A stretch of 64,000 bases of DNA. Source: an uncultured Flavobacteriales bacterium (GTDB taxonomy: Bacteria > Bacteroidota > Bacteroidia > Flavobacteriales_D > Sanyastnellaceae). The translations under genes were made by a program, and so were the position numbers. Each line of letters begins with the position of its first letter. Positions within the stretch are counted from its first letter, which is position 1. The notes under the pieces were generated by a model that saw nothing but the letters and a program-made list of their open reading frames with translations, was not told the DNA's origin and did not search any database. Shown here piece after piece: positions 40,548-53,979 of this stretch. Location: the NCBI GenBank assembly GCA_905478325.1, contig CAJQIB010000012.1:1-64000 (forward strand), in the 5' to 3' direction.

Positions 40548-43500
40548 TCACTGAATAATCACCTGCTCCATAGCACGCTTCATTCCTGATCTCACCATGA
40601 CGTTGTAAATGCCACCAGCATAAGTAGAGACATCCAATCGAATATTTTGATTCGAACCTTGAATGTCTTGGTTATACACCATTCTACCCGTGGCATCATA
40701 AATGGAAACCTCGACCATTCCTGACCATGAAGAAGAGGCAATCCAAAGCTCACTCGTCGCTGGGTTTGGATACGCTTCCATGGGGAAGGTCATCAATTCT
40801 ACGACACTGATCACAACTTCCATTTCAATATCCAGCGTGGTCATACAACCGTTGGAATCCGTCACTGTAACCGTATACAACCCACCCATTCCTGCAATGT
40901 CTTCATCCTCACTGGTGAAGCCATCAGGACCGGTCCACCCAATGATGTAGTCAGGAGTTCCTCCAGAAACTGTAATGGAAATAGATCCTCCAGCTCCTTC
41001 GACATCATTGATGACTTCATCAACCGCAATCACGATGTCACAGAAGTAACAGCTGCCGTCGTCATCCGTCGCGTCTGCATTGTAATTCTCAGCTTCAGGA
41101 TCAGTGCAACCAGCAACCTCTAGTTCATCGCAAACACCATCACCGTCCGCATCATTCAAGCAGTTGCCATCGCAATCGTAATTCGCTTCTGCAAAGGTGC
41201 AAGAACCGTCATCATCCGTTGCCGCCTCATTGTAGTTGCAAGCTGTCATGTCCGTACATCCTGCTACTTCCAATTCATCACAGACACCGTCCATATCTGC
41301 GTCGTTTAGGCAGTTGCCGTCACAGTCGTAGTTCGTCTCGGCAAAGGTGCAAGAGCCGTCATCTTCTGTGGCTTCAGCGCTGTAGTTACATGCTAGTTCA
41401 TCTTCGCAACCTAGGATCTCAAATTCGTCACACACCCCGTCCATGTCGGCATCAGCTAAGCACATCCCTTCACAGTCGTAACCGCTTTCAGCGTAAGTGC
41501 ACGAACCATCATCGTCCGTTGCCTCTGCATTGTAATTGCAAGCCATCATGTCTGTGCAATCCGAAACTTCAAATTCATCACACACACCGTCCCCATCTGC
41601 GTCCGAAAGACAAACGCCATCACAGTCATAACCGGCATCAGCAAAGACGCAGGAGCCATCGTCATCCGTGGCTTCCATACTGTAATTGCATGCATCCACA
41701 TTCTGGCAACCCGTGACTTCGAATTCATCGCATACTCCATCACCGTCAGAATCTTCAAGACAGTTCCCGTTGCAATCATAACCACTTTCTGCAAACGTGC
41801 AAGAGCCGTCATCATCCGAAGCCATTTCATTGAAGTTACAGGCCATCATCTCTGTACAGCCTGCGATTTCAAATTCATCACAAACGCCATCCATGTCCGC
41901 ATCATTCAGACAATCCCCATTGCAATCATATCCGGCAAATGGAAATTCACAAGAATCATCATCCTCTGTGGCCAATTCGTCAAAATTGCAGGCCATCTCA
42001 TCTGTACAACCGTAGACATTGTAATCGCAACTTCCGTCATCATAGTCAGCTGAATCGTCGTAGTTCGATGCCGCAGGGTCAGTGCATCCACACGCATTGT
42101 CCTCTACACTCGGGTTGTATGTTCCAGGTCCATCAAAATCGAAACTTGAGCGGATATCCTCCGAGCCGATCCCATTTTCAAACACTTGGATGTGTGCTGT
42201 ACCAGAGAATGTGCCTGAAGTGGTGAGCTGCATGAACAACACACGGTTATTCACTGCATCAGGCAGGCCATTGGGAGAACCATTCAATACAAACCACGCA
42301 CCACCGGTTTCGTCATTCATCAAAATATCAGCTCCGGCGCTCTCTGAACCGAAGTTAAATGAATTCACCCAAGGTTGTTCCGTACTTTCCACTGTACTAA
42401 TGCCCACTTCTGAACCAACGGGTGTAGAGTCAATTCCAATGGTCACCCAGCTGTCTCCTTCCAATTCCGGGAAGAAAGAAAAGAATGCTGGGTTCACTTG
42501 ATCTGCTGTCGCTCCACCATATGTGCTGTTGTAAAAACCGTCTGAGGTTTCGAGAATAAATGGGTTCTCATTGTTTCCATACACCGAACTCAAAAAATCA
42601 TCCTCGTTGACCATGTTCGCATAAAAGCGATACGTTACGGTTCCCGTAATTATGTCAGAAGCATGCTCCTCAATTGTCATGGTATATTGCATCCCTGGCA
42701 ACAAACCTCCTGAGTTTCCACAAGAGCAGTAATCACAAGAACCATCCTCGTCCGAAGCTTCGATGTTATAGTTACAAGCCACTGGGTCCTGGCAACCCGC
42801 TACTTCAAATTCATCGCACACACCGTCACCGTCTGTATCGACAAGACAGTTGCCATCACAGTCGAGGTTCGCTCCGGCATACGTGCAAGAGCCATCCGGG
42901 GCATTTGCTGCTGCATCATAGTTGCATGCCTCCATATCTGTACACCCGAGAAATTCGCAACTGCCGTTGTCAATGGTTGCCTCAGGATCATAGTTGTCCG
43001 CATTTTCGTCAGTACAGCCAATGCAAGAAGAATACTCACATGTGCCATCTTCGTAAGTCGCTTCAGCATTGTAGTTACAGGCAGAGTCATTTGTGCAGCC
43101 CCCTGTCCCACAACTGGTGTATTCACATGAACCATCGTTGTAGATGGCATCTGCGTCATAATTGCATGCTTCTGCATCTGTACAGCCCACGCATGAAGCA
43201 TATTCACATGAACCATCATCCTCCGTCGCAGAGGCGTCATAATTGCAAGCAAATGAGTCCGTGCATCCAGAAACAACTTCATCAGAAACTGGGAAAAATG
43301 TACCCTCACCACAGAAAGTATAGGTAGCAAGAATTTCATTCGCCCCTATGCCCATTCCAAATATTTGGACATTCACTGTTGAACAGATTTCTCCGCCGGT
43401 TGGAATGCTCAATTGCATGAACATCGTACGCATTGTTTCTGAATCAGGCAATCCATTGGACGCATCCGATAACGTGTACCATGCAGAGCCCGTTGAGTCA

Positions 43501-43940
43501 TCAATCAAAATATCGGTGCCTGACAGCGGGCTGGTCGCATCAAAATGAGCCGCTAAAGGAATGTCCCCTTCAACAATCGATACAGCTGCCTGGTCTCCTT
43601 CAGGTTGACTTTCGATTCCGATGGTGATCCAACTATCACCCAACAAAGTTGGGAAAAACGAATAAAAAGCTGGATTAATAGCACTCGCTACAGTTCCACC
43701 AAAATCATCATTGTAAAACCCATCTGTTGTTGTGAGAATGAGCGGTGTATCCCCTCCGCCAGAAATTGAACTCAGCTTGTCTTCAGGATTCACCATATCA
43801 ACATACAAACGGTACGTTGTGTGTCCTTCAACAATATCTACAGCATGTTCTGCAACAGTCACTGTGTAAGCTTGACCAATTGAAGTAAAGGGAATCAAAA
43901 ACAGAACTAAAATTGAGAGTAAAGAGCTCAAGTGCTTCAT
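40548..43940 (-). CDS. T9SS surface protein A: two copies of a novel domain plus 14 Cys-rich units
   Basis: A secreted protein of 1130 residues. The signal peptide is LSSLLSILVLFLIPFTSIG followed by Q. Order: unnamed beta-rich domain (about residues 22-215), six Cys-rich units, a second copy of the domain (about 413-617), eight more Cys-rich units, an SprB-like repeat (SISITVSGGTPDYIIGWTGP), and a type A T9SS sorting domain (AYPNPATSELWI, VSIYDATGRMVYNQ, YAGGIYNVMV). The Cys unit has the form GCTDxxACNYDxxATxDDGSC. Seven carry an extension YDCDGNCLxDxDxDGVCDE that resembles calcium-binding thrombospondin type 3 loops. Mature protein is probably attached to the outer surface; adhesion or a stalk-like role is inference. 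Confidence 0.85.
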   Translation of the reverse strand: MKHLSSLLSILVLFLIPFTSIGQAYTVTVAEHAVDIVEGHTTYRLYVDMVNPEDKLSSISGGGDTPLILTTTDGFYNDDFGGTVASAINPAFYSFFPTLLGDSWITIGIESQPEGDQAAVSIVEGDIPLAAHFDATSPLSGTDILIDDSTGSAWYTLSDASNGLPDSETMRTMFMQLSIPTGGEICSTVNVQIFGMGIGANEILATYTFCGEGTFFPVSDEVVSGCTDSFACNYDASATEDDGSCEYASCVGCTDAEACNYDADAIYNDGSCEYTSCGTGGCTNDSACNYNAEATYEDGTCEYSSCIGCTDENADNYDPEATIDNGSCEFLGCTDMEACNYDAAANAPDGSCTYAGANLDCDGNCLVDTDGDGVCDEFEVAGCQDPVACNYNIEASDEDGSCDYCSCGNSGGLLPGMQYTMTIEEHASDIITGTVTYRFYANMVNEDDFLSSVYGNNENPFILETSDGFYNSTYGGATADQVNPAFFSFFPELEGDSWVTIGIDSTPVGSEVGISTVESTEQPWVNSFNFGSESAGADILMNDETGGAWFVLNGSPNGLPDAVNNRVLFMQLTTSGTFSGTAHIQVFENGIGSEDIRSSFDFDGPGTYNPSVEDNACGCTDPAASNYDDSADYDDGSCDYNVYGCTDEMACNFDELATEDDDSCEFPFAGYDCNGDCLNDADMDGVCDEFEIAGCTEMMACNFNEMASDDDGSCTFAESGYDCNGNCLEDSDGDGVCDEFEVTGCQNVDACNYSMEATDDDGSCVFADAGYDCDGVCLSDADGDGVCDEFEVSDCTDMMACNYNAEATDDDGSCTYAESGYDCEGMCLADADMDGVCDEFEILGCEDELACNYSAEATEDDGSCTFAETNYDCDGNCLNDADMDGVCDELEVAGCTDMTACNYNEAATDDDGSCTFAEANYDCDGNCLNDADGDGVCDELEVAGCTDPEAENYNADATDDDGSCYFCDIVIAVDEVINDVEGAGGSISITVSGGTPDYIIGWTGPDGFTSEDEDIAGMGGLYTVTVTDSNGCMTTLDIEMEVVISVVELMTFPMEAYPNPATSELWIASSSWSGMVEVSIYDATGRMVYNQDIQGSNQNIRLDVSTYAGGIYNVMVRSGMKRAMEQVIIQ
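41040..42090 (-). repeat. Coding array of eight Cys-rich units in surface protein A
   Basis: Units 7-14 of the protein, six of them with the calcium-loop extension. The period is about 50 residues (150 bases). The two adjacent units near 41100-41350 are almost identical in protein but differ at many third codon positions, so the array is not a fresh duplication. Confidence 0.85.
42715..43270 (-). repeat. Coding array of six Cys-rich units in surface protein A
   Basis: Units 1-6, mostly short (about 27 residues each, joined by xxCxGC); only the fifth carries the calcium-loop extension. The last unit ends in CDYCSCG just before the second domain copy. Confidence 0.8.
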
Positions 43941-44124
43941 GGCAGAAGTTTAAGAAGGACGTTGTTAATCGGAGCAATTTACATTCGAAAAGAGATATTT
44001 CGGCAGTCTTACCCACCAATCTTTGACCAAATCTATTTCAACAAGAATGGATCAAGCTTTACCTGATCCATTCTCATTACGCCAACCGCACTTTGGGAAT
44101 TCGATTCCTTTATTGAATCCTTTT
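43941..44124 (-). other. Intergenic spacer between surface proteins A and B
   Basis: 184 bases. It holds a ten-base-pair hairpin (44045-44073) just after the gene for protein B and a possible TAAATTG box near 43970-43980 on the minus strand before protein A. Confidence 0.4.
44045..44073 (-). terminator. Hairpin downstream of surface protein B gene
   Basis: GAATGGATCA at 44045-44054 pairs with TGATCCATTC at 44064-44073. It is not followed by a clean T run in either direction, so intrinsic termination is only possible. Confidence 0.4.
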
Positions 44125-47100
44125 TTACCGTTGAACAAATACTTTTTCTCGGGCATCCCACTCGCCTGAAAGCACGACCACGTGGTACATGCCGCTCATC
44201 CAACGGGAACAATCGACCTGAAGGCGATTGGTTCCTGCAGCTATTGTTTTCGTGTAAACCAAACGACCTGCGGCGTCATGAATGTGAACCGAGGCTTGCA
44301 GTGCATGGTGACCAATCTCAATCGTTAGATTCGAAACAACAGGATTCGGAAACAATGAAAGGTCGATCATCATGGATTCTTCCACTCCAACAATCGTCTC
44401 GACAACAATTTCAAAAGAGGTTACGGAACACCCATTTTCATCGCTTACGGTAACCTGATACGTCCCTCCCTCCAAGTTGTCAATATCTTCTGAAGCACTG
44501 GTGAAGCTTCCGTCCAACTGTGTCCAAGCAAATACATACGCTTCTGACCCTCCCGTAACTGTAATCGCAATGGCTCCCTGATTCAATCCCTGTTCCGTAC
44601 CAACGACATTGTCCAAAAGAACAAGAAGGGGCTCCGGCTCCATTACTTCAAACAATACAGTCGTAAAGCACCCCGCGGCGTCAACGACCTCAACAGCATA
44701 TTCCCCCGCCAACAAACCAACGAATGCACCTTCTGATTGAGGCGCTCCGTCAGGAAGCAAAACAAAGGTCAACAACGAGTCATTTGGATAAGCTCCTATA
44801 GCGGAGACCAGAACAGCCCCATCATCACTCCCGTTGCACGTTGCATCAGTCACCTCAAGTGAAGCTTCCAACGCGCAGTATGCGCATGATCCGTCATCGT
44901 CTGTTGCCGTTGGATCAAAGTTCAAGGCATCAAAGTCTGTGCAGCCTTCAATTTCAAATGCATCGCAAATACCATCCAAATCAGCATCTTCGAGACAATT
45001 GCCATCGCAGTCGTAATTGGACGCTGCGTATTCACACGACCCATCCTCTTCTGTGGCTTCTAAACTGTAGTTGCAGGCCGCCAAATCTGTGCAGCCCTCC
45101 ACTTCTAAAGCATCACAAATACCGTCATCATCTGTGTCGTTTAGGCAGAGTCCGAGACAGTCGTATCCAAAGTCTGCATAGGTGCAGGACTCATCTTCAT
45201 CTGTCGCATCGAAAGCGTAGTTGCATGCTGTAACGTCTGTGCACCCCGCGATTTCAAACACATCGCAAACACCGTCTTCATCGGTATCAGCCAGGCACTC
45301 TCCATCGCAACCATACCCCTCCGAGGCATAGGTGCATGAGAAGTCTGGTGTATTGGCCAATGCGTTAAAATTGCAAGACAATTCATCCAAGCAACCAAAC
45401 ACACTCGCGATACAGGACCCGTCTTCGTATTCCACCAGGGGATCATAGTTAAAGGCCGCTTCATCGGTGCAACCACATGTGTTTTGCCCGCTAAACGCAT
45501 TGGTCCATTCTGCGCCTTCAAACGAAAAATGATGCAAACTCGCGTTGCTATTGTCTCCATTTTCAAAAACCTGGACATGCAGTTGACCTGAAAGCGTTCC
45601 ATCCGTTGTGACTTGACCGATCAATACACGCAAGTCATCCCCAGCGATGCCATTTGAACCTCCGTTTAGAATAAACCAAGACCCACCAACCGGGTCATCC
45701 ATGACGATATCAGATCCATCTTCAAACGCAGCACTCCAGCCCAGGTCACCGGATGCACCCAAAGCATTCACCAGATTTTCTCCTGCCATTGCAGGACCAT
45801 CTAAACCAATGGTCACCCAGCTGTCAAATGCCAGATCAGGGAACAGCCCCACGAGGTCAGCATTGAGATTTTGAGGTAGCAAGGAACCATTGTCGTCCTG
45901 ATGAAAGGTCGACGATGTCCCCAAGATCAAGGTGTCGACGTCGTTCCCATATACCGAGGAAACGAAATCTTCAGAAGTCTCGGTGGTCACATACAGTCGA
46001 TACGTGGTCATCCCCTCGAGGTTTCCCGATGCATGAACCGCGACTGTATCGATGTCAAGTCCGAATACAGGCACCTCAATCTCTGAGCAGGAACAAAAAT
46101 CACACGTGCCATCGTCATCAGTAGCCAACAGATTGAAGTTGCATGCATTTTCGACTGTGCAGCCCTCGATTTCAAAAAGATCACACACCCCATCACCATC
46201 CGCATCTTGAATGCAGTTTCCTTCGCACGTGTACCAGTCTTCCGGATACGTGCACGAACCATCTTCGTTGGTAACTGATTCTAGATAGTTGCATGCCAAA
46301 GGGTCTGCACATCCGTAAGTGGCCACCGTCACGATGAGTGTTTGCACAAACACCGATGTGTTACCACACTGATCGGAAGCTGTATAGGTGCGCTCTAACG
46401 TTTGAACTGAGGCCTCTTCTGAAAGCAACACATCCAATGAGCTCCAGCTTGCATTGCCATCGCAGGCGTCTTGAATCACTGCAAAAGGTTCTGGAACGCT
46501 TTCGTCTTCTTGCTCATTGACTTGAATCAATGCCTCAGGTAAAACAACAAACTCGGGAGCCAGTGTGTCCCTTACAGAAATCATTTGAACTGCGCTTGCC
46601 GTATTGCCTGCGTCATCAGTCGCAATGAATGTTCGTGTGCAGAGGTAATTGAATGGAGGACAATCCAAAACAAATTCAATTGGGCCGTCAACAAACATTA
46701 CTTGAACATTATCATCACAAGCATCCTCGGCTATGGCCATGACTGTTGGCATGGCTTGATCGCATTGGATCACTGAATCAGCTGGTACTGAAGTGAAGAA
46801 TGGCGGAATCACATCCAACACACATGGGTCAACCGTGAAATCACATGAGCCGTCATCATCCGTTGCCATGGCATTGAAATTGTTCGCCAAAGCATCGGTA
46901 CACCCATCAATTTCAAATTCATCGCAGATCCCATCACTATCTAGGTCAGACAAACAGCTGCCTTCACAACTGTAGCCAGATTCCGGGAAAGAGCAATTGT
47001 CGAATGCTGGTGCACCACAAGCATCTTGCAGGCCAATCACCTTGTTCAAGCCATTATTGACTCCGTCTCCATGGATGAAGAATTGGACAAACATCTGACC

Positions 47101-49374
47101 ACTCAGATTTCCTGCGGTCGTGAATTGCCCCAAAAGAACGCGAAGATCATCCCCGGCGATACCGTTGGTTGCACCATTGAGAATGTACCATAAGCCGCCC
47201 AAGTCATCTGAAATCTCAATGGAACCTCCATTTTCAAAAGGAATGACCCAGGGCTCATTGCCTTCCAAGACACTCACTCCCAATTCGCCTTCCGCGCCAT
47301 TTGCAGACTGATCCAAGCCAATGGTCACCCAAGAATCATAGGCCAATGAAGGAATGAATGGAAATACCATAGGATTGCTGTTTTCTGCCAACGGCCCTCC
47401 TGCTGGACTTTGAAAAAATGATGACGTTGAATGAACCGACGTTGAAAATTCATCGTCACCAGCAACGGCGCTCACAAAATCATCTTCGTTCTCGCAAAGC
47501 GCATACACACGGTAGGTCGTCATTCCACTGAGATCGACTTCACCAACCATGCCTTCATGCACGGTGATGGGTTCAATTTGCAGACAATACGCTTCGTATG
47601 GAACATAATTGCATGCATCGATATCGTTGCATTGGGATGGATACGTGCAGGAACCGTTGTTGTCTGTAGCGTTTGAGTCATAATTCAAGGCGGCCTCGTC
47701 CGTGCAGCCCAAGACCTCCAATTCGTTGCAAACGCCATCACTATCGTTATCCCCTAAACAGTCCCCTTCACAGTCATAGTAAGGCTCCACGAAAATGCAC
47801 GATGCATTGTCCTCCAAAGTGTACGCTTCATCATAATTACATGCCAACTCAATCATGCAACCGGCACAGCTTGTAAACTCGCATGACCCGTCATTTTCAT
47901 TGGCCAAAACATTGAAGTTGCAAGCGATGGAATTCATACATCCAGCAACAGAATACAGGCAAGAACCGTCGTCATCTGTAGCTTCATTGTTGAAGTTGTT
48001 TGCCAAAGCATCCGTGCATCCAGCGACTTCATCTCCATCACAAATACCATCCAAGTCCTCATCAAGAAGACAGTTTCCTTCGCAATCCAAACCATTTTCA
48101 GCGTAAACACAAGAGGAGACATCAGAAATCGTTGCCGCTTCGTCATAATTGCATGCGAAGGTGTCCAAACACCCTACACACGAAGCAAAGTCGCACGATC
48201 CATCGGGGATATTGGCCAATGCGTTGAAGTTGCACGCCAAAGGATTCAAACAACCTCCTATTTCACACGTACCATCGTCAATGAGAGCGGTAGGGTCAAA
48301 ATTATCGGCACTCGCATCCATGCAACCGGCGCAAGAAACAAAATCACATGTTCCATCTTCATAGGAAGCATCTGGATTGAAGTTACATGCGGCTTCCAGA
48401 GTGCACCCTCCCTCTTCGCAGCTGAAATAATCACAGGTTCCATCGTTGTAAATGGCATCTGGGTCAAAATTACAAGCCGTTGAGTCCGTGCATCCCAAAC
48501 ATTCTATGAAGCTGCAGGAGCCATCATCTATTGTGGCCGATTCATCGTAGTTACACGCAAAAACATCGGTACAACCTGCGCATGACTCATATTCACAGGT
48601 TCCGTCATCTTCCGATGCAAAAGCATCATAATTGCAAGCTTCGGAATCTGTACAACCAGGAGCCATTGTTGAGAAGTCTATATCCCAAACATCTGTGCCA
48701 GAAAAACCTTGGTGCACCTGCTCCGAATCCGATGATCCAACAGCAGGGATGACTTGAATATTGAGCAGGCCAGAAGGCAACGAAGCCGACGTAATCTGCA
48801 TAATCAATACGCGCAGGTCATCGCCAGCGTATCCATTGGTCATACCGCTCAACAAAAACCATGCTCCTCCCGCTTCATCAGTCAAGGAAACACTCATTCC
48901 ACTGCTCTCAGCGTTTGCAGAGAAATTAGCCATAAAGGGTTGATCAGGACTTTCCAATGCTGAAATGTCCATTTCGCCAGGTCCAGCAGCCTGGTCCAAT
49001 CCTATGGTAATCCAACTATCGTATGCCGCTTCAGGAAAATAATTGAGAATCAACGGATTGATACCGCCCCCAGTTGAACCACTCGCAAAAGGAGAATTGA
49101 ACATCGGACTATCGACCTCCACCATGAGCGGAGATCCTTGTCCTCCATAAACAGCAGATACAAAGTCGTCGGGATGAGTGCACTCTACATAAAAACGATA
49201 CGTGGTCTGGCCTTCCAATTCTGCCAATCCTGTCACACCATCATGAACCATGTATTCCTCAATCAGCAATTGTGACGATTGAGCATGTAAGCCTATGGTT
49301 GACAGCATGCATGCCGTAAAACCAATCAGACGTAGGGTCGAAATAGAAGGAAAAACCATATGTGAAGAATGCAT
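44125..49374 (-). CDS. T9SS surface protein B: three copies of the novel domain, 19 Cys-rich units, HYR-like region
   Basis: The largest gene here, 1749 residues. A signal peptide (LIGFTACMLSTIGLHAQ) precedes domain copy 1 (about residues 33-238), a run of eleven Cys-rich units, copy 2 (about 595-788), one unit, an HYR/Ig-like region with PPFFTSVPADSVIQCDQAMP and IATDDAGNTAS, two units, copy 3 (about 1103-1295), five units, SprB-like repeats (VLVSAIGAYPNDSLLTFVL; GAIAITVTGGSEAYVFAWT), and a type A T9SS sorting domain (LFPNPVVSNLTIEIG, HIHDAAGRLVYTK, WMSGMYHVVVLSG). About eight of the units or partial units have the calcium-loop extension. It is the paralogue of protein A with one more domain block; function is unknown. 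Confidence 0.85.
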   Translation of the reverse strand: MHSSHMVFPSISTLRLIGFTACMLSTIGLHAQSSQLLIEEYMVHDGVTGLAELEGQTTYRFYVECTHPDDFVSAVYGGQGSPLMVEVDSPMFNSPFASGSTGGGINPLILNYFPEAAYDSWITIGLDQAAGPGEMDISALESPDQPFMANFSANAESSGMSVSLTDEAGGAWFLLSGMTNGYAGDDLRVLIMQITSASLPSGLLNIQVIPAVGSSDSEQVHQGFSGTDVWDIDFSTMAPGCTDSEACNYDAFASEDDGTCEYESCAGCTDVFACNYDESATIDDGSCSFIECLGCTDSTACNFDPDAIYNDGTCDYFSCEEGGCTLEAACNFNPDASYEDGTCDFVSCAGCMDASADNFDPTALIDDGTCEIGGCLNPLACNFNALANIPDGSCDFASCVGCLDTFACNYDEAATISDVSSCVYAENGLDCEGNCLLDEDLDGICDGDEVAGCTDALANNFNNEATDDDGSCLYSVAGCMNSIACNFNVLANENDGSCEFTSCAGCMIELACNYDEAYTLEDNASCIFVEPYYDCEGDCLGDNDSDGVCNELEVLGCTDEAALNYDSNATDNNGSCTYPSQCNDIDACNYVPYEAYCLQIEPITVHEGMVGEVDLSGMTTYRVYALCENEDDFVSAVAGDDEFSTSVHSTSSFFQSPAGGPLAENSNPMVFPFIPSLAYDSWVTIGLDQSANGAEGELGVSVLEGNEPWVIPFENGGSIEISDDLGGLWYILNGATNGIAGDDLRVLLGQFTTAGNLSGQMFVQFFIHGDGVNNGLNKVIGLQDACGAPAFDNCSFPESGYSCEGSCLSDLDSDGICDEFEIDGCTDALANNFNAMATDDDGSCDFTVDPCVLDVIPPFFTSVPADSVIQCDQAMPTVMAIAEDACDDNVQVMFVDGPIEFVLDCPPFNYLCTRTFIATDDAGNTASAVQMISVRDTLAPEFVVLPEALIQVNEQEDESVPEPFAVIQDACDGNASWSSLDVLLSEEASVQTLERTYTASDQCGNTSVFVQTLIVTVATYGCADPLACNYLESVTNEDGSCTYPEDWYTCEGNCIQDADGDGVCDLFEIEGCTVENACNFNLLATDDDGTCDFCSCSEIEVPVFGLDIDTVAVHASGNLEGMTTYRLYVTTETSEDFVSSVYGNDVDTLILGTSSTFHQDDNGSLLPQNLNADLVGLFPDLAFDSWVTIGLDGPAMAGENLVNALGASGDLGWSAAFEDGSDIVMDDPVGGSWFILNGGSNGIAGDDLRVLIGQVTTDGTLSGQLHVQVFENGDNSNASLHHFSFEGAEWTNAFSGQNTCGCTDEAAFNYDPLVEYEDGSCIASVFGCLDELSCNFNALANTPDFSCTYASEGYGCDGECLADTDEDGVCDVFEIAGCTDVTACNYAFDATDEDESCTYADFGYDCLGLCLNDTDDDGICDALEVEGCTDLAACNYSLEATEEDGSCEYAASNYDCDGNCLEDADLDGICDAFEIEGCTDFDALNFDPTATDDDGSCAYCALEASLEVTDATCNGSDDGAVLVSAIGAYPNDSLLTFVLLPDGAPQSEGAFVGLLAGEYAVEVVDAAGCFTTVLFEVMEPEPLLVLLDNVVGTEQGLNQGAIAITVTGGSEAYVFAWTQLDGSFTSASEDIDNLEGGTYQVTVSDENGCSVTSFEIVVETIVGVEESMMIDLSLFPNPVVSNLTIEIGHHALQASVHIHDAAGRLVYTKTIAAGTNRLQVDCSRWMSGMYHVVVLSGEWDAREKVFVQR
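44870..45490 (-). repeat. Coding array of five Cys-rich units in surface protein B
   Basis: Units 15-19; three have the extension (for example DCDGNCLEDADLDGICDAFE). The array starts with CGCTDEAAFNYD directly after domain copy 3. Confidence 0.8.
47590..48655 (-). repeat. Coding array of eleven Cys-rich units in surface protein B
   Basis: Units 1-11 after domain copy 1. Most are short units linked by SCAGC or ECLGC; two carry the calcium-loop extension (DCEGNCLLDEDLDGICDGDE; DCEGDCLGDNDSDGVCNELE). Confidence 0.8.
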
Positions 49375-49434
49375 GAACTGTCGATATTCTGCATCCTATA
49401 CGCATCTTGGGCTCCTTCGGTTTCAAGTAGGCAC

Positions 49435-49461
49435 AAAAAAAAGGGGCCGAAGCCCCTTTTT
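49435..49461 (-). terminator. Terminator of surface protein C gene (UUCG loop)
   Basis: Read on the minus strand, GGGGC-TTCG-GCCCC is followed by eight T. The stable tetraloop and T run make a clear intrinsic terminator about 30 bases after the stop at 49489. The A run on the other side could also let it work in the opposite direction. Confidence 0.9.
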
Positions 49462-49488
49462 CAAGTTATTGAATCAATAACGAAATCC

Positions 49489-51894
49489 TTACTGCTTCAG
49501 TAATTGCAATTGGTTGATCATCAATCCGGCACGAACCTGCAACTGATACACTCCATTCGCAACGCCTGTCAAGTCCATTGTTACGCGATTGCTTCCCGTT
49601 TGGTTCACAAAAACTTGTGAATTTACCATGCGGCCTTGCCCGTCAAAGATCGAGACTTCCAAATCCTGACCCTGAGCACCGGCCCATTCCAACTGGAAAG
49701 CTCCATTGCTCGGGTTTGGACTGACCGATAAGCTGCTCAAGAAGCCCAGCTCCTCAATTCCAACAGGAACACCAAAGGTGCCCTCTACAGAACAACCATT
49801 CATATCCGTAATGGTTACCGTGTATTCGCCAGCTACAATTCCAGTCAAGTCTTCATCTGCACTGGTGAATGCATCAGGTCCGGACCACGCAAACATGTTT
49901 CCGCCATTGCCACCAGCAACGTCAATGTCCAACGCGCCATCACCAGCACCTGTGTCATTGGTAATCGTACCCGTAACTGTCATTTCATCTGGTTCATTGA
50001 TCGTAGCCTCGATGGAGGCTTGACAACCATTTGAATCTTGAACGTAGTACGTGTAAATACCTGGAGTCAAATCGATGTAAATCGGAGAAGAGCCGAAATC
50101 TGTGCCGTCCGCACTGTACTCGTATAAATTCGTACCACCCGCTCCTGCGATTTCAACCGAACCATTGGTGTCTCCAAAACAAGTCACATCCTCTGATGAA
50201 GCCGATGCGATCAATTCAGTCGCATCTCCAACAGTAGCAACGACTTCCGCTTGACAGTCTTCAACATCTGTTGCGAGGATGACATAATCACCAGGCAATA
50301 AATCACCAAACAACGTAACATCGCTTGACTCACCTTCATTGAAAGAGAACGTCAAGCCTCCATTTCCACCATCCGCATTGAAGGATACCATACCATTCTG
50401 GTCACCGAAACACAAAATGTCTGTAACACTCGCATCAATGACAATCGGCTCAGGAGCACCTACCGTGTATTCTACGGTTGATTGACCGATGCATCCGTTG
50501 ACATCCATGGCATAGATGGTATATGTACCACCTTGGACATAAAGTACATTGCCTGGAGCATAATTCACACCATCTGTGCTAAACTCCATGCTCGCTTGAG
50601 TACCTGCACCACCTAATGTCAAAACAACGATTTGACCATCTGCTGAATCAGCGCAAGTTGCGTCCAAAATGTTGCTCTGACCACCTGCCACTGTGACACT
50701 CAATTGTTGCGGATTTGCGACACTAATGGCGATACTTTGTGCAGTGCACCCATTCGCATCTTGTGCATAGACCGTGTACAGACCTGCAGCCAATCCATCA
50801 AAGTACAAATCAGACGCCGTTTCACTGAAGTTTGGTGTGAGACTGAACGTGTAATCGCCAGCACCGCCTTCCGCTTCTCCTGAGATGACGGCGTCACTGT
50901 CTCCGGCACAGCTGACAGACTCTGTCAACGAAGCCGTTAATGTGATCGCATCCGGAACGGCCATTTCCACATCCACTGAAGCGGTACAACCCGCGCCATC
51001 AATCGCGTTTACAGTGTACATGCCGCCAACCAGACCGTTAAAATTTCCAACCGCCAAAGTCGGATCATTTTCGCCAATCCCGAAAGTCACACCCAGTTGA
51101 CCTCCCGTTGCAGAAACGATGATCATACCGTCACTCACTCCTGGACAAGAATTACCGATAACCTCGTCGAGGGTCAATGTCAAGGTGCAAGGAAACACGC
51201 ATGTCTCTCCGGCTTCTGTGGCATCAGGGTTGTAGTTTGTTGCTTCCGGATCCATGCAACCGAAAATTGCACCTGCACTTGAGCTAAATGGAATGCCTTC
51301 GTACTGCGTCGACGCGCTTTGCTCACCATTCAAGAAAACCTGCACGTTGAACGAACCAGTAAAACTTCCAGATGTTGTCAATTGAGCGAGAAGAACTTTG
51401 AAGTCTGGACCCGCTTGAGCTTGCGTGTCTCCAAATAGTGTAAACCACGAACCTCCGTTATCAGAATTCACTACGAAATCACCGCCTGTTTCAAAAACGT
51501 CTACGGCATCATCGATGCCAACTGAGTTAGGTTGCCCCGTTACTTCAGTAGAGTTCGATACACCTAGTGTAATCCACGAGTCAAATTCAGCTTCTGCTGA
51601 AAACGCAAAAAAGGCTGGATTGATGCTCCATCCTGTTGATGCTCCGAAATCTGACTGAAAAAAACCGTCTACTGAAGTCAACGAAAGTGGAGATGACACA
51701 TCTCCATAAACCGCCGAAATCTCATCCAATTCATTGGTCAACACAGCGTAGACACGGTATGTCGTCATACCGTCCAAAGCAGGTATTTCAATTCCGTCAT
51801 GCTCCGCGTAGACCTCGGATACAATCTCAATTAATTGACTAGATCCGCTGATTGCTATTAAACAGGCAACGGCACTTAGTAGAAGTTGTTTCAT
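49489..51894 (-). CDS. T9SS surface protein C: one novel domain and six SprB-like repeats
   Basis: A secreted protein of 801 residues. Signal peptide QLLLSAVACLIAISGSSQ. One copy of the cluster's unnamed domain (about residues 18-211) is followed by a single divergent Cys-rich unit (GCMDPEATNYNPDATEAGET). Then come six SprB-like repeats of about 78 residues, each built on a core such as CxGDxDGxVxxxAxGGxGxYTF and ending in GxYTVxAxDxNGCxA. The type A sorting domain closes it (SVSPNPSNGAFQLEWAG, VSIFDGQGRMVNSQ, VANGVYQLQVRAG). SprB in Flavobacterium is a mobile gliding adhesin, so a surface adhesin role is plausible. The gene has its own TATATTTG promoter and terminator. Confidence 0.85.
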   Translation of the reverse strand: MKQLLLSAVACLIAISGSSQLIEIVSEVYAEHDGIEIPALDGMTTYRVYAVLTNELDEISAVYGDVSSPLSLTSVDGFFQSDFGASTGWSINPAFFAFSAEAEFDSWITLGVSNSTEVTGQPNSVGIDDAVDVFETGGDFVVNSDNGGSWFTLFGDTQAQAGPDFKVLLAQLTTSGSFTGSFNVQVFLNGEQSASTQYEGIPFSSSAGAIFGCMDPEATNYNPDATEAGETCVFPCTLTLTLDEVIGNSCPGVSDGMIIVSATGGQLGVTFGIGENDPTLAVGNFNGLVGGMYTVNAIDGAGCTASVDVEMAVPDAITLTASLTESVSCAGDSDAVISGEAEGGAGDYTFSLTPNFSETASDLYFDGLAAGLYTVYAQDANGCTAQSIAISVANPQQLSVTVAGGQSNILDATCADSADGQIVVLTLGGAGTQASMEFSTDGVNYAPGNVLYVQGGTYTIYAMDVNGCIGQSTVEYTVGAPEPIVIDASVTDILCFGDQNGMVSFNADGGNGGLTFSFNEGESSDVTLFGDLLPGDYVILATDVEDCQAEVVATVGDATELIASASSEDVTCFGDTNGSVEIAGAGGTNLYEYSADGTDFGSSPIYIDLTPGIYTYYVQDSNGCQASIEATINEPDEMTVTGTITNDTGAGDGALDIDVAGGNGGNMFAWSGPDAFTSADEDLTGIVAGEYTVTITDMNGCSVEGTFGVPVGIEELGFLSSLSVSPNPSNGAFQLEWAGAQGQDLEVSIFDGQGRMVNSQVFVNQTGSNRVTMDLTGVANGVYQLQVRAGLMINQLQLLKQ

Positions 51895-52063: not shown

Positions 52064-53845
52064 TCAATTCTTGATGACCAACTGAGCCGGGAAAGTGGCA
52101 TCACCATTCAAAATCAACATGTAAGATCCTGAAGGCAATTCAGACGTTGACATCTGAACAACCGCTGCGCCCAATACGACTGGTGTAGAACGGATCATCC
52201 GTCCCGTCATATCATACAACTCCAATTGAAGCGTTCCTTGCTGATCGCTGTTTAAAGCAATGTTCAACTCTTGGTCAAATGGATTGGGATAAACAACCAG
52301 CGCATTGCCTAACCACTCGTCAACATTGACTACGCACGTTGTGCATTTGTTGTAGCAGACGGCTTCTAATATTTCTGGCTCACCACTGCGTTCATGAATT
52401 CGATTATATGCACCGAAACCATTCGCCAAACCACAACCGTCAGACTCAAAGTTACCCAGTTCATTGCCTTCAGCATCCACATTGGCTCCAGACTCTTCCA
52501 AATAGTCAATGCCGTTATCTCCTGTTGAAGGGTCTCCGTTGACAAATTTGTAAAGAACCGTTGTGCCTCCGCTCACATTGGCTGTGACTTCATACACCCC
52601 ATCGGCGTCGTCATCTGTCATTTGCATTCCACCTGCTTGCCAGTTTGGCGACGTGAAATTTCCAATCACCCAAACACCATTGGCATTCACCTCCTCTTCT
52701 GACATATCAACTCTGAACGTAATGTCAGCCGGATCAGGATTTTCAACGCAAGTCAACTCACATGAATTATAACACACCTCATATAGGACGGCATCACTGC
52801 CAACTGAAATAGCGCGGTTGTCACTTCCTTCAGCAGCGCAGTCTCCTACAATCAATTCATTATCTACGTTTCCGTCGCCATTGCCACTCCAATCATTCCC
52901 GTTGATAAACTTGAACTCATAGTCCCCAGGCGCCATGCCTAAAGTGAGTTCCCAAATGCCATCACCATCATCGTCACTCAATGGATTCGAATTGGCCGAC
53001 CACCCTTGGAACGACCCCGCTACGTGCACACCGTTGACGGAAACCGTTTCCTGAGTTGTCATGTCCACACGAAGCGTGACCTCTGTTGGAGAAACACACG
53101 TTCCACATGCATTGTAACATGGAGCAGCTCCCGTACCAACATCGCCATACAACACTTCATTTTGACTCGTCAACCCGAATGATCGGTTGCCAAAGCCATC
53201 TGAACACGCCTCATCATCAATGTTTTCATTCGGATTCGTCCAAGAATTTCCATTGATGAATTTGAAAAGAATGGCGCTACCAAGCCCCGTTGTGTCAAAA
53301 GACACGACTGTTTCCCAAATGCCATCCTCATCATTGTCTTGCAAAGGCGTCGTTGCTGGGTCCCAATTTTGGAAATCACCCGCTACGTGCACGCCATTGG
53401 GAGAGATTGCAGCCTCAACACTCATATCAACTCGCAAGCGCACACTGTTCATACCGCAGGCCGCACAGTTTGCAAAGCAAACGAACATCGAGGCTTCTGT
53501 TTCTGACTCAGAAACATGTAAAAACCGATTGTCATTTCCTGATATTTCGACTTGGCATGTCGGTGGCACATCTTCTGCGTAATCCCAAGCAGGACCATTG
53601 AGGAATTTAAACTCAAGCATTCCAGGTGCAACATCCAACGTGACTTCATACACATTGTCCATGTCGTCATCGGCAAGTGGAGTTGCCATAGGGTCCCATC
53701 CTTGAAAACTACCTGCGATGTAAACACCATCCGCTGAAACAGTTTCATTGGACATGTCGACTTGGAAGGTCACGGGAACGAGGACTTGAGCACTCAACCA
53801 TGTTGCCATGACGAGAAATGCTCCGAGGGTCAAGAGGTGCTTCAT
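52064..53845 (-). CDS. T9SS surface protein D: four CBM/AMPK-like modules with Cys clusters
   Basis: A secreted protein of 593 residues. Signal peptide LLTLGAFLVMATWLSAQ. Four tandem modules of about 110-130 residues follow, with the pattern VTFQVDMS, NGVxVAGSFQGWDP, TPLxDDDxDGVYEVT, PGxxEFKFINGxxW, resembling starch-binding (CBM20/48) and AMPK glycogen-binding domains. Each module ends in a Cys cluster: CFANCAACG, CYNACGTCV, CYNSCELTC, CYNKCTTCV. The C-terminus is a type A T9SS sorting domain (VVYPNPFDQELNIALN, LELYDMTGRMIRS, LPSGSYMLILNG). It may bind alpha-glucan on the cell surface, but no catalytic domain or SusC/D pair is nearby. The frame opens at 53929; 53845 starts the signal peptide. 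Confidence 0.82.
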   Translation of the reverse strand: MKHLLTLGAFLVMATWLSAQVLVPVTFQVDMSNETVSADGVYIAGSFQGWDPMATPLADDDMDNVYEVTLDVAPGMLEFKFLNGPAWDYAEDVPPTCQVEISGNDNRFLHVSESETEASMFVCFANCAACGMNSVRLRVDMSVEAAISPNGVHVAGDFQNWDPATTPLQDNDEDGIWETVVSFDTTGLGSAILFKFINGNSWTNPNENIDDEACSDGFGNRSFGLTSQNEVLYGDVGTGAAPCYNACGTCVSPTEVTLRVDMTTQETVSVNGVHVAGSFQGWSANSNPLSDDDGDGIWELTLGMAPGDYEFKFINGNDWSGNGDGNVDNELIVGDCAAEGSDNRAISVGSDAVLYEVCYNSCELTCVENPDPADITFRVDMSEEEVNANGVWVIGNFTSPNWQAGGMQMTDDDADGVYEVTANVSGGTTVLYKFVNGDPSTGDNGIDYLEESGANVDAEGNELGNFESDGCGLANGFGAYNRIHERSGEPEILEAVCYNKCTTCVVNVDEWLGNALVVYPNPFDQELNIALNSDQQGTLQLELYDMTGRMIRSTPVVLGAAVVQMSTSELPSGSYMLILNGDATFPAQLVIKN

Positions 53846-53872
53846 GCAATAATTTATTTTAGAATGTACTTG

Positions 53873-53879
53873 CAAAGTA
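53873..53879 (-). promoter_or_regulatory. -7-like box TACTTTG for surface protein D
   Basis: TACTTTG on the minus strand has one base rather than two between TA and TTTG and lies 28 bases before the ATG at 53845. Confidence 0.35.
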
Positions 53880-53979
53880 CACGTTCCTAAACTTTTGAAA
53901 GCATGGCGAAACAAACACTTATTCACCATGGCCTGATTTCACGTTGAAATCCGCCTGCCGTTTCCTTCAAAAACTGAAC

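Follow-up and report, generated by a model that had tools for sequence, protein, structure and literature searches.

The window analyzed here is a 64,000-nucleotide stretch of DNA (contig CAJQIB010000012.1, positions 1 to 64,000) from an uncultured Flavobacteriales bacterium of the family Sanyastnellaceae, in which three adjacent genes, A, B and C, encode proteins that share a domain of about 195 residues and end in a sorting domain of the type IX secretion system (T9SS) (Table 1). The domain (191-202 residues) occurs six times in the window, i.e., twice in A, three times in B and once in C. A first-pass annotation had proposed these copies, and all six were found within 21 bases of where it had placed them, on the minus strand. 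The copies have 22 invariant columns in common and are 30-46% identical to copy B2. In leave-one-out profile searches, the left-out copy scored 138-207 bits, whereas 500 shuffled versions of each copy never exceeded 12.7 bits, and a chance origin of the similarity is excluded. Of the landmark motifs listed by the first-pass annotation, AGDDLRVL is complete solely in the three copies of B.

Table 1. Genes, domain copies and sorting domains at the locus (positions within the window)
Feature	Position	Strand	Description
Gene A	40548..43940	-	1130 aa; order: A1, Cys-rich units, A2, Cys-rich/TSP3-like units, T9SS type A tail
Domain copy A1	43290..43874	-	274.0 bits to six-copy profile
Domain copy A2	42111..42692	-	296.2 bits to six-copy profile
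T9SS C-terminal sorting domain of A	40554..40772	-	Por_Secre_tail (PF18962), 50 bits, cut-off 27
Gene B	44125..49374	-	1749 aa; three domain copies with Cys-rich units and other segments between, T9SS tail
Domain copy B1	48673..49278	-	profile and alignment
Domain copy B2	46996..47589	-	profile and alignment; AlphaFold2 model
Domain copy B3	45487..46065	-	profile and alignment
T9SS C-terminal sorting domain of B	44140..44355	-	Por_Secre_tail, 43.4 bits, cut-off 27
Gene C	49489..51894	-	801 aa; order: domain, one Cys-rich unit, SprB repeats, T9SS tail
Domain copy C1	51259..51831	-	profile and alignment
T9SS C-terminal sorting domain of C	49525..49722	-	Por_Secre_tail, 45.3 bits, cut-off 27
Neighboring gene D	52064..53929	-	621 aa; CBM48/AMPK1_CBM-type repeats and T9SS tail; no domain copy

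Cysteine-rich units of the GCTDxxACNY type, of which A has 14, B 19 and C one by pattern, received no name from Pfam. SprB repeats were matched in C (59.3 bits) and, just under the cut-off (27.5 bits, cut-off 28), near the C-terminus of B, and DUF3244 overlaps the T9SS tail of C (25.8 bits, cut-off 25). A 17-residue TSP3-like stretch of B exceeds the cut-off of the calcium-binding model PF03495 (26.8 bits, cut-off 25), a match that we read as a calcium-binding repeat and not as a toxin.

As the first-pass annotation had supposed, no named family fits the domain. For 67 aligned members, the best Pfam match had an E-value of 0.0054 (Invasin_D3, one member) and the best NCBIfam match one of 0.023 (one member), and a profile search of the PDB sequences returned nothing credible, its sole row, a herpesvirus tegument protein (E 0.39, 42 positions matched), being discarded. 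An alignment of 50 rows representing two phyla has invariant D, T and Q positions and a nearly invariant W. A viral origin of the domain was rejected, given that none of 31 IMG/VR stretches matching a pattern was confirmed, tblastn with the single query copy B2 found no match in phages or plasmids, and no viral structure matched the domain model at E ≤ 0.001. Among the papers listed by literature searches, which mostly covered journals outside subscription, none describes, judging by titles and the openings of abstracts, the domain or a dockerin system in its Flavobacteriales family.

AlphaFold2 gave models of copy B2 and of a copy from Phycisphaerae with predicted local distance difference test scores of 93.8 and 96.0, respectively, and a predicted template modeling score of 0.90 for each. 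An extracellular beta-sandwich is a sound assignment of the predicted fold class, in agreement with the beta fold and surface role anticipated by the first-pass annotation. Foldseek returned no PDB match at E ≤ 0.001 for either model; its first row was TTHA1873 for B2 (E 5.3e-3) and the Cna collagen adhesin for the Phycisphaerae model. With VIA-align, where all Z values remained under the tool's caution level of 8, the B2 and Phycisphaerae models matched the Als9-2 adhesin with Z values of 5.9 and 7.1 (3.6 and 3.5 Å over 116 and 118 residues) and their best cohesins with Z values of 5.4 and 6.3. By their titles, cohesin or cellulosome entries, which are redundant in the PDB, made up 29 and 22 of the best 50 rows for the two models. 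The likeness of the modeled domain to cohesins is therefore weak, and the predicted fold does not establish kinship with them.

The copies of the window are part of a much larger set in the bacterium's own genome, where BLAST with one copy identified 31 places and the six-copy profile 32, two of which are fragments of a single copy; the places are spread over 14 contigs. We took these as about 31 copies in 19 open reading frames (ORFs), the window contributing three of the ORFs, a count made uncertain by the many ORFs that run off contig ends. In a tree of 30 of the 31 copies, C1 formed a pair with one from contig C17 (100/97), B2 and B3 clustered with two from C35 (96/91), and A1 and A2 fell into an open group with five copies on C8, C15, C26, C35 and C56 (89/95). 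Since the copies of the window interleave with copies elsewhere, the family did not arise at this locus, and expansion by gene duplication inside the locus, which the first-pass annotation had suggested, is rejected on the strength of the genome-wide copies and the tree. Its statement that the domain always stands beside Cys-rich units holds for A, B and C but not genome-wide, as L040:2575-3213 (about 210 residues) consists of the domain alone. This ORF belongs to the own-genome version, together with L040:4195-7344 (SprB and CHU_C by Pfam), of a gene pair seen at many loci of the family (L073-L107), in which a domain-only protein of about 210 residues is accompanied by one of about 810-1100 residues whose N-terminus bears a domain copy.

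We next consider the spread of the domain, with its presence called at E ≤ 1e-5 in the samples of the two phyla, the order and the family. The domain was found in three of 296 Bacteroidota genomes, the own genome included, in 50 of 150 genomes of the order, nine of those 50 lying outside the own family, and in 112 of 114 genomes of that family, whose records are mostly metagenome assemblies; here it was present in all 21 genera, often in more than 20 copies. Six of 294 Planctomycetota genomes also contained it. A scan of GTDB contigs yielded 355 confirmed stretches, and the 80 loci that were kept came mostly from Flavobacteriales or Bacteroidetes metagenome-assembled genomes (MAGs), with seven from Planctomycetota; the seven Planctomycetota genomes reached via these loci contain 2-13 domain copies each. 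Three loci carry titles at odds with their genes and are probably mis-binned or mislabeled, i.e., L103, a MAG titled Euryarchaeota archaeon that carries the Flavobacteriales gene pair, and L066 and L068, titled Chryseobacterium gleum, which hold gene types of the own Flavobacteriales family.

In several domain proteins, the C-terminus is formed by a stretch resembling CPGDxNxDGxVxxxDLLxFLxxYGxxC instead of a T9SS tail. A profile built from 11 such tails, all from domain-bearing proteins, gave 63 own-genome matches at E ≤ 0.1; after removal of duplicates, 47 matching ORFs remained in the fetched stretches, 39 of them with the match at the C-terminus. Thirty-three of these 39 proteins lack the domain and six carry it, so that the domain precedes a sorting domain, as the first-pass annotation had it, in A, B and C but a dockerin-like tail in six other own-genome proteins. 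By profile, the tail consists of paired EF-hand-like units in 15 of the 39 proteins and of a single unit in 24, typically between two cysteines. Dockerin_1 (PF00404) exceeded its cut-off of 22.9 bits in two of 22 tail-bearing own-genome proteins (L044, 24.0 bits; L212, 26.1 bits), with L191 under it at 20.7 bits, and "dockerin-like" is therefore a fair term. The paired C-terminal tails resemble the GC-type dockerin NF041540, but none of eight tail-bearing own-genome proteins reached its 29-bit cut-off (L044, 23.1; L194, 22.6; L204, 22.5), and the single-unit tails differ from it in form.

Pfam scans of 17 tailed proteins without the domain identified two M12B reprolysin-like and two M43 proteases, one BD-FAE/alpha-beta hydrolase, an Exo_endo_phos protein, a DUF6851 protein (VCPO_2nd just under cut-off), an LTD protein, three FG-GAP/UnbV_ASPIC proteins and two proteins with CBM48/AMPK1_CBM modules. 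Our own-built profile found no T9SS tail among the 39 tailed proteins, its two matches at E ≤ 0.01 being internal and weak; the dockerin-like tails may alternatively be a replacement secretion signal. Gene D, with its T9SS tail, adjoins C, and a CBM48 protein elsewhere in the genome (L189) ends in a dockerin-like tail instead. Four adjacent genes at L199 (own contig C36:2219-13488) all have dockerin-like tails, two of them encoding FG-GAP/UnbV_ASPIC proteins. At L185, L187, L198, L217 and L207 of the own genome the dockerin-like unit is internal or near the N-terminus, some of these ORFs being cut by stretch ends.

Domain and tail are linked across genomes. Tails were detected in six of the 296 Bacteroidota genomes, with at least 25 matches in G000, at least 26 in G045 and one in G041; the remaining three, from another family, had one weak match each. 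All three domain-positive genomes (G000, G045 and G041) thus have tails, and the two that are rich in the domain are the two that are rich in tails. We then counted both in 80 chosen genomes, comprising 50 from the own family and, from the rest of the order, nine domain-positive and 21 domain-negative ones. Tails were present in 54, i.e., 47 of the 50 family genomes, seven of the nine domain-positive genomes and none of the 21 domain-negative genomes outside the family (Fisher p 1.8e-5 for tail presence versus domain outside the family). Tail and domain counts rose together, with a Spearman rho of 0.91 over the 80 genomes, 0.85 over the 50 family genomes and 0.82 over 21 genus means, values that ignore shared ancestry and in which domain counts near 29 and 22 are lower bounds. 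As exceptions among the family genomes, G300 and G305 lack the domain and have a single tail each, and no tail was found in G312, G314 and G317, which contain 3-7 domains.

When the 80 kept GTDB loci were examined for tailed genes beside domain genes, eight of their 19 tail ORFs lacked the domain; by a hand estimate from own-genome density, about as many or more were expected by chance. Such clustering was consequently not counted as support, and a single cluster, in G041 of another family, is used as one case. There, the sole tailed protein at E ≤ 1e-5 (L218:5208-7889), which lacks the domain, lies on the same strand among four domain ORFs. These match the domain in pieces of 18-50 bits, and have a T9SS tail over cut-off in two instances, under it in one and none in one.

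Amongst the 294 Planctomycetota genomes, dockerin_GC occurred in 11, the domain in six and both in four (Fisher p 1.6e-5, ancestry uncorrected), two domain-positive genomes being without dockerin_GC. Examination of 23 Planctomycetota domain ORFs identified seven with PEP-CTERM-like tails (the one scanned scored 16.7 bits, cut-off 16), eleven with dockerin-like tails by profile and one more by eye, and four with neither. The expectation that the domain would occur mainly in T9SS substrates was therefore correct in part, since carriers of the domain also include proteins with dockerin-like tails and Planctomycetota proteins with PEP-CTERM-like ones. In L219, L222 and L122, domain ORFs have dockerin-tailed neighbors that lack the domain; in L219 and L222 the domain ORF is tailed as well. 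A scan of six tailed Planctomycetota proteins with NF041540 reported none, although a separate search with other filters scored one of the six, G520:C70:4321-4482, at 29.3 bits.

Three kinds of carrier are thus observed, for which the roles of anchor, adaptor and cargo are proposed. The putative anchors combine the domain with a T9SS tail, as in A, B and C, or with a PEP-CTERM-like tail in Planctomycetota; the putative adaptors combine it with a C-terminal dockerin-like EF-hand tail; and the putative cargo has such a tail without the domain, partly on enzymes. We tentatively favor, as possible though short of probable, the reading that the domain docks partners in the manner of a cohesin, within a surface system that resembles a cellulosome and is anchored via the T9SS. 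Under this proposal, the T9SS would carry A, B and C to the surface, each of their one to three domain copies would bind a dockerin-like tail, probably with Ca2+, and proteases, an esterase-like hydrolase and other proteins would thereby be gathered on the cell, as the cellulosome gathers glycoside hydrolases. A more specific version, which we consider somewhat unlikely, would make the domain a dockerin receptor of a new class with no sequence relation to cohesins. Together with about 40 tagged proteins per genome, it would build a protease-rich complex held on the surface by T9SS anchors in a widespread family of marine Flavobacteriales, and Phycisphaerae would have a parallel complex anchored through PEP-CTERM-like tails.

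The arrangement resembles the cellulosomal cohesin-dockerin system (PF00963/PF00404) in its anchored multi-copy carriers, tailed adaptors and tail-only proteins, enzymes included, and in the predicted beta-sandwich with its weak structural likeness to cohesins. It differs in that the domain has no sequence or profile match to cohesins, binding being a candidate function here, and in that the cargo would consist of proteases and other surface-type proteins and the anchors of T9SS or PEP-CTERM-like tails. A further parallel is the "planctosome" of freshwater Planctomycetes, a cohesin-dockerin complex of a non-cellulosic kind that was proposed to include M12B reprolysin-like proteases together with a lamin-tail protein (PMC6461901); reprolysin-like, M43 and LTD proteins likewise bear tails in the own genome. 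That model uses recognized cohesin modules (PMC6461901), of which PF00963 found none in the own genome at E ≤ 0.001. A cellulosome-like complex of Cloacimonadota also has dockerin-tagged peptidases and a scaffold attached via its C-terminal domain, but this scaffold contains recognized cohesin and CBM (carbohydrate-binding module) domains (PMC8542988).

Several observations weigh against a docking role. The fold matches are weak, fungal Als adhesins score as high as or above cohesins, and the PDB is rich in near-identical cohesins. Comparison of the domain with cohesin-type sequences of the same lineage by hhalign gave a probability of 0.1%, homology by profile comparison thus being rejected, and PF00963 was absent from the 18 Pfam families matched by any of the 67 domain members at E ≤ 1. 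Besides their disregard of ancestry and their minimum counts, the rank correlations used a tail profile derived from domain-bearing proteins and had no control surface family. Of the 11 Planctomycetota genomes with dockerin_GC, seven are without the domain, and G525, G556, G617 and G694 among these have at least 19 dockerin_GC matches each; in G792 and G800, two of the four genomes with both, the domain is matched weakly (best E 1.2e-6 and 1.8e-7). Some Planctomycetota proteases carry domain and dockerin-like tail in one chain, i.e., L227:2175-4682 (M12B, Dockerin_1 24.1 bits) and L219:1741-4308 (Trypsin_2); an adaptor role suits these chains only loosely, and the domain could also be a binding or companion module in them.

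Recognizable cohesins in related genomes weigh on the same side. PF00963 exceeded its cut-off in five of the 114 family genomes and reached E ≤ 0.001 in seven. Four proteins of sister genera, L229:661-4626, L232:1137-5114, L233:1917-5843 and L235:941-4465 (1175-1326 residues), have the domain near the N-terminus, a cohesin-type region further on and a T9SS tail, L235 being the weakest (domain 17.4 bits, cohesin match under cut-off). Their composition ties the domain to a cohesin-dockerin setting, yet the cohesin may be the receptor there. In the tail-rich genome G338 (59 tail matches), L230:1026-3029 (668 residues) joins a canonical cohesin match over cut-off to a paired dockerin-like tail, and two of the seven cohesin-positive loci, where T9SS tails were called with our own-built profile, have a cohesin and a T9SS tail with the domain not in view. 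The G041 cluster also contains a T9SS gene whose N-terminal part, cohesin-like by eye, aligns with the cohesin-type regions of the family and is not called as a cohesin by Pfam at E ≤ 0.1; in G338 and G041, too, a cohesin may be the receptor.

Of the competing explanations, a ligand-binding adhesin module survives best and is a real possibility, if on balance a doubtful one. The domain would here bind algal or particle surfaces, or another protein, with no dockerin role, and domain and tails would have co-expanded in one surface proteome. By VIA Z, the nearest solved structures are indeed adhesin N-domains (Als9-2), and Cna heads one Foldseek list; the Als matches (Z 5.8-7.1) have identities of 4-13%, however, and come from other organisms and another architecture. 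C bears SprB repeats and D carbohydrate-binding modules, and seven of the 23 Planctomycetota ORFs are simply domain plus PEP-CTERM-like tail. An adhesin has no known ligand here, and by itself leaves unexplained why one tailed protein is kept in most low-copy genomes of other families (7/9), and why the only such protein of G041 sits amongst domain genes.

Less probable is a passive structural unit, either a stalk spacer or an Ig-like companion of dockerins and anchors, comparable to the X modules beside cellulosomal dockerins. In A and B, domain copies and Cys-rich/TSP3-like units take turns, and in Planctomycetota L219, L220, L226 and L227 the domain sits a short way ahead of the dockerin-like tail. 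It is, however, the sole domain of the ~210-residue proteins, is N-terminal and far from the tail in L221, L223 and L225, and its invariant D, T and Q and near-invariant W seem beyond the needs of a spacer. Finally, cohesins that have diverged beyond the reach of Pfam might hold the tails, the domain merely riding on the same proteins. This would suit the four proteins that join the domain to a cohesin-type region and the Pfam-missed gene of G041 but is quite improbable, as the own genome gave no match to PF00963 and a lineage cohesin-type profile detected no such region among the 1248 own-genome ORFs of the window and the fetched stretches (best E 0.69), the rest of the genome not having been searched with that profile.

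What is new here is the set of 39 own-genome proteins with dockerin-like tails, 33 of them without the domain, together with tail and domain counts that rise in parallel. If the domain does not hold these tails, the link between the two still needs another cause. If it does, it would provide a concrete receptor candidate and a new protein connector, and many uncharacterized surface proteins of these bacteria would be parts of one machine.

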